A program made the position numbers and the translations under genes. This document shows positions 5,132 through 31,070 of a DNA stretch of 38,312 nucleotides, in pieces. The stretch spans positions 1-38,312 of the forward strand of contig JAFQBH010000027.1 in NCBI GenBank assembly GCA_017399765.1, written 5' to 3'. Numbering within the stretch: position 1 is the first letter of the stretch; every line of letters begins with the position of its first letter. The notes below the pieces were generated by a model. It saw only the letters and a list, made by a program, of their open reading frames with translations, had not been told where the DNA came from and did not search any database. Origin of the DNA: Oscillospiraceae bacterium. Its GTDB lineage: Bacteria > Bacillota > Clostridia > Oscillospirales > Ruminococcaceae.

Positions 5132-5230
5132 AATCTTATAACATCATAAAAATAAAACCGCTTTTTTCAACAATTCCTTTATAAATAATAATACATTTAT
5201 AAATATATCGCCAAAAATATGTGGAAAACC

Positions 5231-5337: not shown

Positions 5338-6672
5338 ATGAATTCTTTTGATGAAATTCTGGATTTTGTAAAAGATTATTGTAAAACTCAGATGACAGAA
5401 GTTGCCTTTAATCTTTGGATTAAAGATATTGAACCGGTAAAACTTACAGGCGACGAAGCTCATATAAGAGTTAATTCCGAATTCAAAAAAAATATTGTCT
5501 CCGAAAAATACAAAGATCTTCTTTCAAGGGGTTTTGAAAATGTTCTTGGTTTTCTTGTTGAAGTAAAAATAGATTTCAGCACCGAAAATTCCGAAATCCA
5601 AAAACCTTCTTATTCCGTGCAAACTACCGAACCTGCAATAACTGTCGAACCCGGTGAATATGCTTATACATTCGACACTTTTATAGTCGGTTCTTCAAAC
5701 AAATTTGCCCATGCTGCGGCAATGGCTGTCGCAACCCATGATATAAGAAACTATAACCCTCTTTTTATTCACGGCGATTCCGGTCTTGGTAAAACCCATC
5801 TTCTTTTTGCAATAATGAACGAAGTAAAAAGAAGAAAACCCGAAGCAATCGTTGAATATGTAAAAGGTGAAGAATTCACAAACGAACTTATCGCAGCTAT
5901 CCGCAGCCAGACCACTCCCGAGTTCCGTGAAAAATACCGTAAAGTAGATTACCTTCTGGTCGATGATATTCAGTTCATTGCCGGAAGAGATTCCACCCAG
6001 GAAGAATTTTTCCACACTTTCAATGCTCTTTATGAATCCGGCAAACAGATAGTTCTTGTTTCCGACCGTCCTCCGAAAGAAATCAAAACTCTTGAAGACC
6101 GCCTTCGCAACCGTTTTGAAATGGGTCTTATGGCGGATATCCAGCCGGCGGATTTTGAAACAAGAATCGCTATAATTCAAAGAAAAGCCGACCTTCTTAA
6201 AATGGATATGCCCATAGAAGTTGCTGAATATATAGCAAATAACCTTAAAAGCAATATTCGTCAGCTTGAAGGCGCAGTAAAAAACATAAAAGCAAATTCT
6301 CTTATCTATGAAAACAAACCCATAACAATAATGATGGCTCAGACAGCAATCCGCGATATTCTTAATGATAATCAGCCGATTCCCGTCACAATAAGCAAAA
6401 TAATCAGCGAAGTCGGAAGAACTTTCAATATTTCCGAACAGGATATAAAAAGCAACAAGCGCGCCGCCAACATAAGCCGTGCCCGCCAGGTTGCAATGTA
6501 TGTTATCAAAGATATCACTCAAATGAGCATGGCCGCCATCGGAGAAGAATTCGGCGGAAGAGATCATTCAACTGTTGTCTACGCCATAAGCCAGACAGAA
6601 AAAATGATGAAAACAGATTCTCACCTTCGCGAAATAATCGAAGATATAACAAAAAACATAAAAGATATGTAA
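5338..6672 (+). CDS. dnaA: Chromosomal replication initiator DnaA
   Basis: DnaA is the AAA+ ATPase that binds DnaA boxes and opens oriC. The 444-residue protein has domain I (1-80), a short linker (81-108), the AAA+ domain with Walker A GDSGLGKT at 146-153 and Walker B LLVDD at 206-210, the RNRF arginine-finger region near 257-260, and the C-terminal helix-turn-helix with GGRDHST at 406-412 that reads DnaA boxes. The frame stays open 39 codons further upstream, but that segment includes the promoter; the ATG at 5338 has GGAGG seven bases before it and matches the normal DnaA N-terminus. Codon use is more AT-rich than in gyrA. The gene is flanked on both sides by DnaA boxes. Confidence 0.98.
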   Translation: MNSFDEILDFVKDYCKTQMTEVAFNLWIKDIEPVKLTGDEAHIRVNSEFKKNIVSEKYKDLLSRGFENVLGFLVEVKIDFSTENSEIQKPSYSVQTTEPAITVEPGEYAYTFDTFIVGSSNKFAHAAAMAVATHDIRNYNPLFIHGDSGLGKTHLLFAIMNEVKRRKPEAIVEYVKGEEFTNELIAAIRSQTTPEFREKYRKVDYLLVDDIQFIAGRDSTQEEFFHTFNALYESGKQIVLVSDRPPKEIKTLEDRLRNRFEMGLMADIQPADFETRIAIIQRKADLLKMDMPIEVAEYIANNLKSNIRQLEGAVKNIKANSLIYENKPITIMMAQTAIRDILNDNQPIPVTISKIISEVGRTFNISEQDIKSNKRAANISRARQVAMYVIKDITQMSMAAIGEEFGGRDHSTVVYAISQTEKMMKTDSHLREIIEDITKNIKDM

Positions 6673-6930
6673 ACTTTTCCACATGTTGAAAATTTATAAA
6701 ACAATGTTAATTTAACAGAGTTTTCACAATATAACATTTTTTATTCAACAAGGCAATTTTTACGTTTTTTTCTTTCAACTTTTCAAAATTTTTTCAAGAT
6801 TTCAAAACTGAAAACAAAAACATAAAAAAACGCATAAAAAAGCATGTCCGAAAAGTTTTCAACATTATCAACAACCCCTACTATTATTACTTAATAATAC
6901 TATTCTTTCTTTCTATCGGGAGGAGATTTT
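6673..6930. other. oriC right part: dnaA-dnaN intergenic region
   Basis: A 258-base AT-rich segment. DnaA-box-like 9-mers are seen at 6675-6683 (+, TTTTCCACA), 6684-6692 (-, TTTTCAACA; head to head with the first), 6742-6750 (+, TATTCAACA), 6856-6864 (+, TTTTCAACA) and 6865-6873 (+, TTATCAACA). The unwinding element lies at the right end (6856-6893). The dnaN SD GGGAGGAG is at 6918-6925. Confidence 0.85.
6856..6893 (+). promoter_or_regulatory. oriC basal unwinding element with DnaA-trios
   Basis: Two directly abutting DnaA boxes (6856-6873) are followed by ACCC and then CTA CTA TTA TTA CTT (6878-6892). On the complementary strand, read 3'-5', this is GAT GAT AAT AAT GAA. The order box, C-rich spacer, trios matches the Bacillus subtilis unwinding system described for DnaA-trios. 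Confidence 0.82.
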
Positions 6931-25000: not shown

Positions 25001-26035
25001 GTGACAAAATCCAGAAAATTTCTTACAGCATTGATTCTTTCCGCAATAATAATATCCTCTTCCGGATGCGAATTTTCGGAAAATTCCCCGGCAATTTCGC
25101 CGGAAGCTTCTTCAGAAGTTTCTTCCGAAAGCTCTTCCCTTCCGGAAAGCGTGCCGGAAGTTATAATAACTCCCGAATCTTCCGAACCGGAAGAAATTAT
25201 CGAAGCGGAACCGGTTATCGAACCGGCAATAAGCTTCCTTTCCCAAACCGCCGAAAGGGGAAGCTATTTCGTCCTTTCCGCGGAAAATATCGACCTTACG
25301 GATTTTTTCTTCACCGATCCCTTCGGATATAACCGCCGCTTTTTCGAAAAAGACGGAATCTGGTATTGCTTTATTCCCGTTGATCCTTCAACAGATGCCG
25401 GATATTATCCGCTCAAAATTTCCTGCGGCGATTTTGAGTTTAAAACCACAATAACCGTCGCGGACAGAAAATTCAAAAAACAATATCTTGTGGTTGAACA
25501 AGCCACTCTTGACGCAACTCTTGAGGATGCCGCCGTTCGTGAATCTTTTGCCGCTTTCTTCGAAGAAAAGCGCTGGAACTTCACCGAAGAAAAACTTTGG
25601 GAAGGTGAATTTCTTCCTCCCCTCGGCGATTCCTGGTATAGGGAAACGACTTCTTACGGAACTTTCAGAACCTTTTCAAGCGGAAGGACCGAATGGCATA
25701 ACGCGACGGATATGGCCGTTGGCGGCGGAACTCCGATTTTTGCAACGAACAGCGGAAAAATCCTTTTTGCGGATTGGCTCGGTTTAACCGGCAACACAAT
25801 TATCATCGACCACGGCTGCGGAATTATGAGCTGGCATTATCACCTTCATAAAATAAACGTTGCCGAGGGAGATTTTGTTGAAAAAGGAACAAAAATCGGA
25901 ACAGTCGGAACAACCGGACTTTCCACCGGAAACCACCTACATTTCGGAATAACCGTCGGCGGAATTTTCACCGACCCGATGGCTATGATAGGAACGGAAC
26001 CGAATTTTGATTTTGAAAAGGTGAAAACAGAATGA
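25001..26035 (+). CDS. Lipoprotein M23 family zinc endopeptidase
   Basis: M23 (LytM-like) enzymes cut peptide bridges in peptidoglycan. The 344-residue protein begins with a lipoprotein signal; the lipobox ends SSGC with Cys23 as lipid anchor. A Ser/Glu/Pro-rich linker (24-75) and an immunoglobulin-like region (about 76-155) lead to the C-terminal M23 domain, with HNATD (H233, D237), H281 in SWHYHLH and HLHFG (H312, H314), the full set of zinc and catalytic residues. It should act outside the membrane. Start is GTG at 25001 behind GGAGGA. The stop overlaps the dusB ATG (ATGA), which couples a cell-wall enzyme to a tRNA-modification gene. Confidence 0.92.
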   Translation: MTKSRKFLTALILSAIIISSSGCEFSENSPAISPEASSEVSSESSSLPESVPEVIITPESSEPEEIIEAEPVIEPAISFLSQTAERGSYFVLSAENIDLTDFFFTDPFGYNRRFFEKDGIWYCFIPVDPSTDAGYYPLKISCGDFEFKTTITVADRKFKKQYLVVEQATLDATLEDAAVRESFAAFFEEKRWNFTEEKLWEGEFLPPLGDSWYRETTSYGTFRTFSSGRTEWHNATDMAVGGGTPIFATNSGKILFADWLGLTGNTIIIDHGCGIMSWHYHLHKINVAEGDFVEKGTKIGTVGTTGLSTGNHLHFGITVGGIFTDPMAMIGTEPNFDFEKVKTE

Positions 26036-27012
26036 AAATAGGAAACATCGAACTTCCTAAATATGCGGCTCTTGCGCCTCTTGCGGGTGTCGGCGACAGA
26101 GCAATGCGCGAAATAAGCCGTGAATATGGTGCAGTCTGGACCGTCGGGGAAATGACCAGCTCAAAAGGCCTTTCCTACGGAAGCAAAAAATCCGCCGAAC
26201 TTCTTGAAATAAACGAAGCGGAAAGACCCTGCGCGGTCCAGCTTTTCGGAAGCGAACCGGAAGTTATGGCGGAAGCCGCAAAAATGGCTCTTGAATATAA
26301 ACCGGACGCAATAGATATAAACTTCGGCTGCCCCGTTCCGAAAGTTGCGGGAAACGGCGGCGGCTCCGCCCTTATGAAAGACCCGGAACTTGCGGGAAGA
26401 ATCGTCCGGGCCGTTGTTGATGCGGTTGATATTCCCGTAACGGTAAAATTCCGCGCCGGCTGGGATAACGAACACCTCAACGCCGTGGAATTTGCCTGCA
26501 TCTGCGAAGCAAACGGCGCTTCCGCCCTTACCGTTCACGGAAGAACAAGGACACAGATGTATGCGCCTCCGGTCAACTGGGATATTATTAGACAGGTGAA
26601 AGAAGCGGTTTCCGTTCCGGTAATCGGAAACGGTGACGTAACTTCCCCGGAAACGGCAAAGGCTCTTTATGACCAGACCGGCTGTGACCTTGTAATGGTC
26701 GGTCGCGGCGCAATGGGAAATCCCTGGGTCTTCAGGCGCATCGCCCACTATATGGAAACCGGCGAACTTCTTCCGGAACCGACCCCGGAAGAAAGAATGG
26801 CCGTCCTCAAAAAACACATTGAGCTCCTCTGCGAATACAAAGGGGAATATACCGGAATGCGCGAAGCGCGAAAACATTCCTCCTGGTATATAAAAGGAAT
26901 GCGCGGCGCCGCCGAATTCCGAAGGGAATGCGGCGCTCTTGAAACTCCGGAAGACCTTGAAAATTTAATCGATCGGGTGCTCCTTGCTTCCGAAAATGAA
27001 GGAGATTTTTGA
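26032..27012 (+). CDS. dusB: tRNA dihydrouridine synthase (DusB type)
   Basis: Dus enzymes are FMN-dependent and reduce uridine to dihydrouridine in tRNA. The 326-residue TIM-barrel protein shows APLAGVGDRAMR near the N-terminus, INFGCPVPKVAGNGGG with active-site Cys100, VKFRAGWD, LTVHGRTRTQMY and IGNGDV, then the MVGRGAMGNPW phosphate-binding part. Assignment to the DusB subgroup follows from Firmicutes gene habits and overall pattern, so the exact target uridine is inferred. Translation is coupled to the M23 gene. The gap behind it holds the DnaA-box cluster. Confidence 0.94.
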   Translation: MKIGNIELPKYAALAPLAGVGDRAMREISREYGAVWTVGEMTSSKGLSYGSKKSAELLEINEAERPCAVQLFGSEPEVMAEAAKMALEYKPDAIDINFGCPVPKVAGNGGGSALMKDPELAGRIVRAVVDAVDIPVTVKFRAGWDNEHLNAVEFACICEANGASALTVHGRTRTQMYAPPVNWDIIRQVKEAVSVPVIGNGDVTSPETAKALYDQTGCDLVMVGRGAMGNPWVFRRIAHYMETGELLPEPTPEERMAVLKKHIELLCEYKGEYTGMREARKHSSWYIKGMRGAAEFRRECGALETPEDLENLIDRVLLASENEGDF

Positions 27013-27056: not shown

Positions 27057-27319
27057 TTATCCAAAAATTTCCAAATCCGCAGAAAAATATACCCGAAAGT
27101 ATGAAAAAACCGTTTTCAACAAAAAAATTATGAATAAACGGCATATTTAAGCCATTTGGTGGAGTACTCGGTGGAAAACGTTGAAAACTTTATGATTTTC
27201 ATAAGAAATCATAACAAAAACCCAAGTTTTCAACATAGCGAATGTTGAAAATGTTGAAAAGTGCTCAAAAAAACCGCTTTTTAAAGCCGTTTTAGCCCAA
27301 AAGTTTTCCATGTGGACAA
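27057..27319. promoter_or_regulatory. Intergenic DnaA-box cluster (dusB-hemW)
   Basis: Within 263 bases: TTTTCAACA at 27113-27121 (+), 27227-27235 (+), 27243-27251 (-) and 27252-27260 (-); one-change variants TTTTCAACG at 27179-27187 (-), TTTTCCACC at 27170-27178 (-) and TTGTCCACA at 27311-27319 (-); weaker TTATCCAAA at 27057-27065 (+) and TTTTCCATG at 27304-27312 (+). Two boxes form a 10-bp inverted repeat around AGCGA. The same TTTTCAACA form is used in oriC. No R1-R5 repeats occur here. A DnaA titration or regulatory site is inferred; hemW could also be controlled from it. Confidence 0.7.
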
Positions 27320-27393: not shown

Positions 27394-28509
27394 TTGAATA
27401 AAAAACCCGATGCCGGACTGTATATTCATGTTCCCTTCTGCGCCCAAAAATGCAGGTACTGCGATTTTTATTCCTTTCCGAAAGGCGAAGAATTTTTTGA
27501 AATTTATAAAAACCGCGTTATCGAAGCCATCGATTTTTACGGAAAAAGGTATGCAAGGCGTTATAACTCTTTGTATTTCGGCGGTGGAACTCCCCTGCTC
27601 CTCGGAGAAAAACATCTTTGCGATATAATGGAAGGGGCAAAACCCTTTCTGACTTCCGATGCGGAAGTTACCGCCGAAGGCAACCCGGGAATTTCCGAGC
27701 GGGTCGATTTTTCCGTTTTAAAAAATGCCGGAATTAACCGTCTTTCCTTTGGTCTCCAAAGCAGTGACGAGCGGGAACTTTCCGCCCTCGGAAGGATACA
27801 TTCCGCAAAAGAGGCGGCGGAAACAGTAAAATCCGCCCAAAAGGCAGGTTTTGATAACATCTCTCTCGATTTGATGCTGGGAATCCCCTATCAGACGGAA
27901 GAAAGCCTTCTCAGAAGCATAGATTTCTGCGCTTCTCTCGGCGTTTCGCATATTTCTTCCTATATGCTTAAAATCGAGGAAGGAACACCCCTTTCGAAAA
28001 GCGAACTTCGCTTTCTTTGCGCCGATGAGGAAAAAGTTTCCGATTTTTATCTCCTTGCCTGCGAGGAACTTGAAAAACGCGGCTTTATGCAGTACGAAAT
28101 TTCAAATTTTGCGAAGGACGGAAAACGCTCCTTCCATAACACCCGCTATTGGCTGGACGATGAATATATCGGAATCGGACCTTCCGCCCATTCCTTTATG
28201 GAAGGCCGCCGCTTTTATTTTGACCGGAGCATAAAGGATTTTCTCGAAAAGCCTTTTGATGAAATTGAAAAAGAGGAATCTTCCGGCGGCGGCTGGGAAG
28301 AATTTTCAATGCTTCGCCTTCGCCTTACCGATGGTCTTGATGTTTCGGAACTTAAAAAACGCTTTCCGGAAGTTTCCGGAGAAAAAATCCTCGAAAACGC
28401 AAAACCTTTTGAAGCGCCGGGACTTCTTAAAATTTCCGGCAGCAGAATTTCCTTTACCCCAAAGGGCTTTCTTCTTTCCAACGCCCTCACCGCGGAAATT
28501 TTATATTAA
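27394..28509 (+). CDS. hemW: Radical SAM heme chaperone HemW
   Basis: HemW is a radical SAM protein related to coproporphyrinogen III oxidase HemN but acting as a heme carrier. The 371-residue product begins with IHVPFCAQKCRYCDF, giving the cluster cysteines C16, C20 and C23, followed by FGGGTP (62-67) for SAM, the radical-SAM barrel and a C-terminal HemN-like region. The frame is open upstream to 27310, but that segment overlaps a DnaA box; the TTG at 27394 behind GGGAGGG is the natural start. Whether it acts in heme metabolism in this organism cannot be seen from the window. Confidence 0.93.
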   Translation: MNKKPDAGLYIHVPFCAQKCRYCDFYSFPKGEEFFEIYKNRVIEAIDFYGKRYARRYNSLYFGGGTPLLLGEKHLCDIMEGAKPFLTSDAEVTAEGNPGISERVDFSVLKNAGINRLSFGLQSSDERELSALGRIHSAKEAAETVKSAQKAGFDNISLDLMLGIPYQTEESLLRSIDFCASLGVSHISSYMLKIEEGTPLSKSELRFLCADEEKVSDFYLLACEELEKRGFMQYEISNFAKDGKRSFHNTRYWLDDEYIGIGPSAHSFMEGRRFYFDRSIKDFLEKPFDEIEKEESSGGGWEEFSMLRLRLTDGLDVSELKKRFPEVSGEKILENAKPFEAPGLLKISGSRISFTPKGFLLSNALTAEILY

Positions 28510-30872: not shown

Positions 30873-31070
30873 AAAACACCCTGCTTTGTGCGAGAATCGT
30901 CCGTTTTTTTAATCCAACAAATCGTTAAACGGGAGTCCTTCTCCGGCTTTGTAATGTAGGCCCTGCCTTTATGGATCGGGGGAACGTGAACCAGCCGGGA
31001 GAACTTTACCCACCCTTGTCATCAGACCGGGTTTCAACGATGGACTGTTCGGCAACGCGGGGTATTTTTT
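30873..31070 (+). ncRNA. ssrS: 6S RNA
   Basis: 6S RNA binds the housekeeping RNA polymerase by imitating an open promoter. The 5' AAAACACCCTGC pairs with the 3' GCGGGGTATTTT over 12 positions with one mismatch, closing a long rod; the middle carries the TGAACCAGCCGGGAGAAC and ACCCAC segments and the TTTCAACGATGGACTGTTCGGC part near the 3' end that I recall from Firmicutes 6S RNAs. The T-run at 31064-31070 would end transcription. In Bacillus the 6S-1 gene lies next to yrvM (tcdA), as here. No strong promoter is seen directly upstream, so it might be processed from the DUF1292 transcript. Confidence 0.82.

Follow-up and report, generated by a model that had tools for sequence, protein, structure and literature searches.

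Clusters of DnaA boxes outside oriC of Bacillus subtilis were reportedly described by Okumura et al. in 2012. When six B. subtilis clusters are deleted, initiation occurs early, and restoring one of them partly relieves the effect (PMC5295017, PMC13220808). DnaA binding at some B. subtilis regions needs the protein Rok (PMC4447404). The organism is without Hda, SeqA and IHF (PMC13220808), and DnaA limitation in such bacteria is unsettled. One description of a cluster is that of Mackiewicz 2004, as quoted in PMC7561715: at least three boxes that are on average less than 100 bp apart. Evidence for extra-oriC clusters in the literature that we covered comes from B. subtilis, and a genus-fixed array is an independent, testable case. 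We found no report of such a cluster at dusB or hemW in a literature search that covered few subscription papers, in agreement with a preliminary description of this DNA that knew of no described cluster at dusB-hemW.

The dusB-hemW gap and its boxes

The window (the whole stretch of DNA that was analysed, 38,312 nucleotides) belongs to the draft genome of an uncultured gut bacterium, which totals 1.83 Mb and is 88% complete. Its dusB and hemW genes are co-directional and are separated by a gap of 381 bp with 33% G+C, directly downstream of which lies hemW. An array of DnaA boxes spans about 260 bases of this gap. We take hemW to start at the TTG behind AGGGAGGGAG, a ribosome site; an alternative in-frame ATG at 27310 gives a longer ORF. 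Boxes that match TTWTCMACA are called strict, and the standard forms scored are TTTTCAACA, TTTTCCACA, TTATCCACA and TTATCAACA. The features are as follows.

5164..5228, oriC boxes upstream of dnaA (reference)
5338-6672, dnaA
6675..6892, oriC boxes between dnaA and dnaN, including abutting boxes 6856/6865 and the DnaA-trio CTACTATTATTACTT (reference)
26032..27012, plus strand, dusB, tRNA dihydrouridine synthase B (TIGR00737, 402.5 bits, cut-off 293.3)
27057..27065, plus strand, weak DnaA-box-like TTATCCAAA, one change from the standard form, as read from the sequence
27089..27108, conserved non-box 20-mer ATACYCVAAAGTATNAAAAA with ATAC/GTAT inverted ends
27113..27121, plus strand, forward box b1 of module 1, exact TTTTCAACA
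27170..27178, minus strand, box A1 of pair A, module 1, TTTTCCACC, one change from the standard form
27179..27187, minus strand, abutting box A2 of pair A, module 1, TTTTCAACG, one change from the standard form
27189..27221, variable linker between the modules, 58% column identity
27227..27235, plus strand, forward box C of module 2, exact TTTTCAACA
27243..27251, minus strand, box B1 of pair B, module 2, exact TTTTCAACA
27252..27260, minus strand, abutting box B2 of pair B, module 2, exact TTTTCAACA
27253..27271, conserved GTTGAAAAGTGCTCAAAAA, consisting of box B2 and non-box GTGCTCA, found in 13 of 61 genomes, all of the same genus, one copy each
27304..27312, plus strand, weak box D, TTTTCCATG
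27311..27319, minus strand, box E, TTGTCCACA, one change from the standard form; TTATCCACA or TTATCAACA in four relatives
27394..28509, plus strand, hemW, radical SAM heme chaperone (TIGR00539, 249.8 bits, cut-off 205.4)

The preliminary description had listed four exact TTTTCAACA boxes plus near matches on both strands, a perfect 10-bp inverted repeat, and a position about 20 kb from oriC between dusB and hemW. The exact boxes are present at 27113(+), 27227(+), 27243(-) and 27252(-), the repeat is formed by 27227-27236 and 27242-27251, and the measured distance from the cluster to the dnaA start is 21.8 kb.

Chance arising from AT-richness is ruled out by dinucleotide shuffles of the 381-bp gap, none of which (0 of 20,000) matched the four exact boxes; the shuffle mean was 0.04 and the maximum 2. 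The 1.83-Mb draft holds 174 exact boxes, compared with 57 for a reversed-pattern control. At the genome's own box rate, four exact boxes in 148 bp have P = 1.6e-9, or approximately 4e-5 when corrected for all windows. The mean start-to-start spacing of these four boxes (27113-27260) is 46 bp, well inside the Mackiewicz 2004 spacing, and the array sits outside the origin.

Elsewhere in the window, a 6S RNA gene (RF00013, 57.9 bits) is located at 30875-31067 on the plus strand and is the window's sole Rfam match. Three small ORFs precede it, and the one that was tested is DUF1292.

Conservation and layout within the genus

Our set of 61 genomes comprises 15 of the same genus, the source genome included, and 46 from outside it. 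dusB is present in 60 of the 61. It is followed by hemW in 14 of the 15 same-genus genomes, including our own, and in G009 the contig stops inside dusB. The preliminary description had named conservation in relatives as a check, and each of the 14 same-genus genomes whose gap can be read keeps both the array and the dusB-hemW order. Between the protein matches, the gap measures 383-413 bp in 13 of these and 476 bp in G011, the most distant of them, which keeps dusB-hemW and the geometry and has two boxes exact. In the seven genus genomes measured, our own among them, the array and dnaA are separated by 21.4-23.0 kb. The nearest named DusB relatives are 12 loci with 93-99% DusB identity in Oscillospiraceae assemblies, for 10 of which a ruminant hindgut source is given.

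Across the 14 gaps, box C has an exact form in every genome, B1 in 13 (one change in 1), and A2 and B2 in 10 each (one change in the other 4 in both cases). Box b1 is exact in 5, with one change in 8 and two in 1; E is exact in 4, with one change in 7, two changes in 2 and loss in 1; and A1 is exact in 3, with one change in 11. Weak box D carries two changes in 12 genomes and four in 2. The number of strict boxes in the cluster ranges from 2 to 8 across the genus.

Column identity, compared over 13 genomes without G011 and over seven boxes (b1, A1, A2, C, B1, B2 and D), is 95.8% in the boxes versus 77.3% in the rest of the gap, and among 361 shifts of the box mask the true register alone reaches 95.8%. 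Differences in C (3 of 3) and B1 (9 of 10), together 12 of 13, are swaps between TTTTCAACA and TTTTCCACA, both of which are used at origins in the genus; therefore, the DnaA-box form itself is kept at these two sites. Differences in b1, A1, A2 and B2 fall for the most part on terminal positions of the box, and frequently leave the site a single change away from a standard form.

The array reads as two rigid modules with a fast-changing linker between them; in each module, a forward box faces two abutting reverse boxes. Pair A is 82 bp from the core of the 20-mer ATACYCVAAAGTATNAAAAA in 14 of 14 genomes, and the distance from forward box C to pair B scores as 17 bp in 13 of 14; in L020, the remaining one, an extra forward box just before C was scored first. 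Pair B is 56 bp from AAAGTTTTC in all 12 genomes that have AAAGTTTTC. The two pairs are 72-74 bp apart in 13 genomes and 105 bp apart in G012, which has one large linker insertion. Spacings of 73 and 105 bp are both near whole helical turns, a weak indication drawn from a single insertion.

The 20-mer ATACYCVAAAGTATNAAAAA occurs as a single copy in each of 14 genus genomes and in 0 of 46 other relatives (61 genomes searched). Likewise, 13 genus genomes have a single copy of GTTGAAAAGTGCTCANAAA each, and the rest of the 61 have none. The constant spacings point to a complex of defined structure, and the rigid two-module layout combined with a conserved non-box motif suggests more than a passive sink. 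Repeats of the GAGCA[CT] type are found in or beside the gap, at 27010, 27261, 27345 and 27386, and are conserved across most of the genus.

The recognition loop of DnaA is an identical GGRDHSTVVYA in 13 of the 15 genus genomes, with VVYS in G004 and IVYA in G011, and all 15 have Ser and Tyr at the positions of E. coli T435 and H439. Residues at these positions make base contacts that are conserved in the Firmicutes compared, according to a study of C. difficile (PMC7561715). At the dnaA loci of the genus, some of which end at contig ends, two of the 15 contain a single TTATCCACA, 14 contain TTTTCAACA and all 15 contain TTTTCCACA. This distribution fits TTTTCMACA as the DnaA box of the genus, and we infer that the change in the loop caused the change in box form. 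The loop survey also extended to other genera, where a Ser/Tyr loop is present in 9 of 15 and the loop pattern is unmatched in the other 6; TTTTCMACA is commoner than TTATCCACA among boxes near dnaA in the genus and other genera together.

Box clusters at oriC, in the genome and near dnaA

In the dnaA-dnaN origin, abutting boxes at 6856 and 6865 are followed by ACCC and then by five DnaA-trios, at 6878-6892. Next to the cluster boxes, trio runs reach at most 2, versus 5 at oriC. Because a DnaA-trio is found at dnaA-dnaN, with none beside the cluster, the cluster is not the main origin on this evidence. The preliminary description had likened the cluster to oriC in density and box form, and both points are borne out: 4 strict boxes per 300 bp are found in the cluster and in the best window around dnaA, and the dnaA-dnaN origin has the same forms as well as an abutting pair.

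Scans for pairs of strict boxes (0-30 bases between them for convergent pairs) in the 88% complete draft place convergent pairs at two locations, oriC and the dusB-hemW cluster, with 0 in the reversed-pattern control. Direct pairs occur at three, namely oriC, the cluster and C29:16050 (control 0), and divergent pairs at 0 places genome-wide (control 1 on each strand). The cluster is thus nearly unique in the draft genome outside oriC.

Among the matches listed for the 46 non-genus genomes, dusB and hemW are close only in G040, where hemW is upstream of dusB (L037). No three-box cluster was detected in other genera at 15 dusB or 16 hemW loci with flanks of approximately 1.5 kb, which contain at most one strict box per 300 bp. 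Among 80 named dusB loci, 12 have an adjoining hemW and at least three strict boxes per 300 bp, and these are not independent because they are the same as genus genomes already counted. The remaining 68 are without an adjoining hemW and have at most two strict boxes per 300 bp; one of them, L178, is a same-genus contig that ends inside dusB.

Box pairs in other genera are found near dnaA. In 32 non-genus genomes with dnaA and listed pair loci, 16 of 79 listed non-oriC loci, spread over 12 genomes, fall 4-45 kb from dnaA versus 2.9 expected (P = 8e-8, with limits chosen post hoc, after the positions had been seen). This count covers the genomes in the upper part of two tables of pairs and leaves out G016 (coding repeats, 31 pairs), G023, G029 and G040 (all three with no usable dnaA) and G031 (a single row listed). 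The other 20 of the 32 genomes have no listed pair 4-45 kb from dnaA. Neighbourhoods of dnaA totalling 1.52 Mb in 27 genomes contain 298 strict boxes, compared with 46 for the reversed pattern.

We also scanned non-genus dnaA regions of 15-80 kb each, joining the ends of the single-contig genomes G034 and G044 as circular (G034 with a one-base offset). In 6 of 20 regions, three or more strict boxes cluster 9-25 kb from dnaA, all six of these regions having been known beforehand to hold pairs there and five having been chosen for that reason; the other 14 are without a cluster of three strict boxes away from oriC. Seven near-dnaA clusters are distributed among various contexts. They lie inside genes in G027 and G033 (28.2 kb of the contig) and between genes in G024, G036 and G048; a further one in G033, at 32 kb, is partly in a gene, and that of G026 is under a 126-codon ORF that looks spurious.

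Several other box pairs were observed. At L243 (G006:C20), two or three TTTTCAACA-type boxes at 48615-48654 are just upstream of a strong promoter-like sequence. As read from the sequence, the leader that follows looks like the start of an rRNA operon, and the contig is without rRNA. A similar box-pair pattern is listed for 8 of the 15 genus genomes and is near a contig end in at least five. DnaA boxes at an rRNA operon, if that is what these are, would link initiation and growth. Box pairs at L244 (G006:C17, 3575-3985) and L261 (G036:C43, 75641-76139) are upstream of a gene for a protein of 94-98 amino acids with the motif RGxNKxIIEIN. The G006 and G036 proteins have 40% identity over 48 residues, the G036 gene is approximately 10 kb from dnaA, and the G006 copy has no Pfam match. 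Finally, many convergent TTTTCMACA pairs with a recurrent spacer of 14-15 bases are found in G022 and other genera, G022 having 13 convergent pairs of all spacings. Pairs with the 14-15 base spacer could be the site of another regulator or a phased DnaA site.

Possible roles and comparison with known systems

We consider it probable, at roughly 0.58, that the gap holds a cluster of DnaA boxes of the oriC-proximal type known from B. subtilis, and that it would restrain initiation by binding DnaA. DnaA would bind the two modules cooperatively, with each forward box opposed to its pair of reverse boxes. Replication reaches the cluster within its first 22 kb, soon after the origin, and the second copy would then take up free DnaA and lower the amount remaining after initiation. 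Re-initiation might in turn be delayed, a mechanism that has been proposed for the extra-oriC clusters of B. subtilis. The titration role put forward in the preliminary description fits the near-origin position and the B. subtilis precedent, and it stands here as a proposal. The few extra boxes (2 to 8 strict) would titrate little unless bound cooperatively, because the genome already has 174 exact boxes. In addition, neither constant spacing nor a single-copy 20-mer is required in a pure sink, which counts against the titration reading.

The position of the gap immediately upstream of hemW makes promoter control possible. We therefore weigh, as a tentative and somewhat unlikely alternative, that DnaA is mainly a transcription factor at the hemW upstream region that ties hemW expression to the replication cycle, in which case the spacings would be promoter geometry. 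In B. subtilis, DnaA serves as a transcription factor besides being the initiator (PMC4447404), the conserved blocks outside the boxes could belong to a promoter or operator, and elsewhere in the genus a box pair is just upstream of a gene in at least one case (G006:C17). However, scanning with a simple consensus detected no sigma-70-like promoter directed toward hemW, the single hit (1.1 expected) being on the opposite strand, and the array is missing around hemW at the 16 loci of other genera, while near-origin clusters in other genomes are at other genes. Since box pairs of other genera are enriched near dnaA, at various genes where the context was read, a role tied to the origin-near position is favoured over one tied to hemW. 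If the order-wide enrichment near dnaA is upheld by a pre-planned test, it would suggest that selection keeps an origin-near position and not a particular target gene.

A more elaborate idea, which we regard as unlikely, is a composite DnaA-handling site in which a lineage-specific protein on the 20-mer and two phased DnaA modules would assemble into a definite structure, and this would inactivate or recycle DnaA shortly after the fork has passed. Such a site would be a Firmicutes analogue of datA and DARS, and one case of an order-wide tendency to keep a DnaA-box cluster within tens of kb of dnaA, whatever genes are there. Rok may be one model for the partner protein. Distinctly doubtful is the related proposal of a DARS/datA-like element whose fixed arrangement of boxes, together with a partner protein on the 20-mer, would change the nucleotide state of DnaA and not only its free amount. 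It draws on the opposed polarity of one box and two tandem boxes in each module, as in the DARS core (PMC5742627), on constant spacings within and beside the modules (82, 17 and 56 bp) around a variable linker, and on the single-copy 20-mer beside them. The near-whole helical turns before and after the 73 to 105 bp change also agree with it, although that argument depends on one insertion. The mixed box directions, unlike those of datA, speak against this proposal, as does the description of the partners IHF and Fis for proteobacteria in the same source.

That the gap is conserved as an RNA or a small gene, with incidental boxes, seems very improbable. GTGCTCA and TGAGCAC could pair across approximately 80 bases, yet the alignment fold gives a covariation term of 0.08 kcal/mol with no double change in this helix, and there is no Rfam match in the gap; both results rule against a structured RNA. 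A reverse-strand ORF of 45-47 codons is present in 5 of 14 gaps, whereas no ATG ORF of at least 25 codons is common to all 14, so a hidden small gene was rejected as well. Least credible of all is that the gap is, or once was, another replication origin, despite the oriC-like box density and the AT-richness of the gap, as no DnaA-trio adjoins the cluster boxes. AT skew changes sign near 5 kb, is negative at 18-25 kb, where genes are on the minus strand, and becomes positive after 25 kb, where genes also switch strand; because the skew follows gene strand, it gives no verdict on an origin.

The likely DnaA-binding cluster resembles known systems to different degrees. Box forms and an abutting pair are common to the cluster and the genome's own dnaA-dnaN origin (oriC2), and the DnaA-trio is found at the origin only. 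The parallel with datA and DARS drawn in the preliminary description is a loose one, in which the DARS half stands better than the datA half. The three-box core polarity of E. coli DARS1 and DARS2 (box I opposite II and III, in a fixed arrangement) is present as + - - at 27227/27243/27252 and is kept in relatives; the likeness is one of box polarity as read from DNA. Similar to E. coli datA, the array groups DnaA boxes at fixed distances in non-coding DNA that lies away from oriC, whereas the essential boxes of datA share one direction and need an IHF site (PMC5742627), and the boxes here are of mixed direction. The extra-oriC clusters of B. subtilis, as described in reviews, also consist of several boxes in oriC-proximal positions outside oriC of a Gram-positive bacterium with a dnaA-dnaN origin. 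Compared with these, the dusB-hemW array occupies another locus, uses the box form TTTTCMACA, and combines two fixed modules with a genus-specific single-copy motif.
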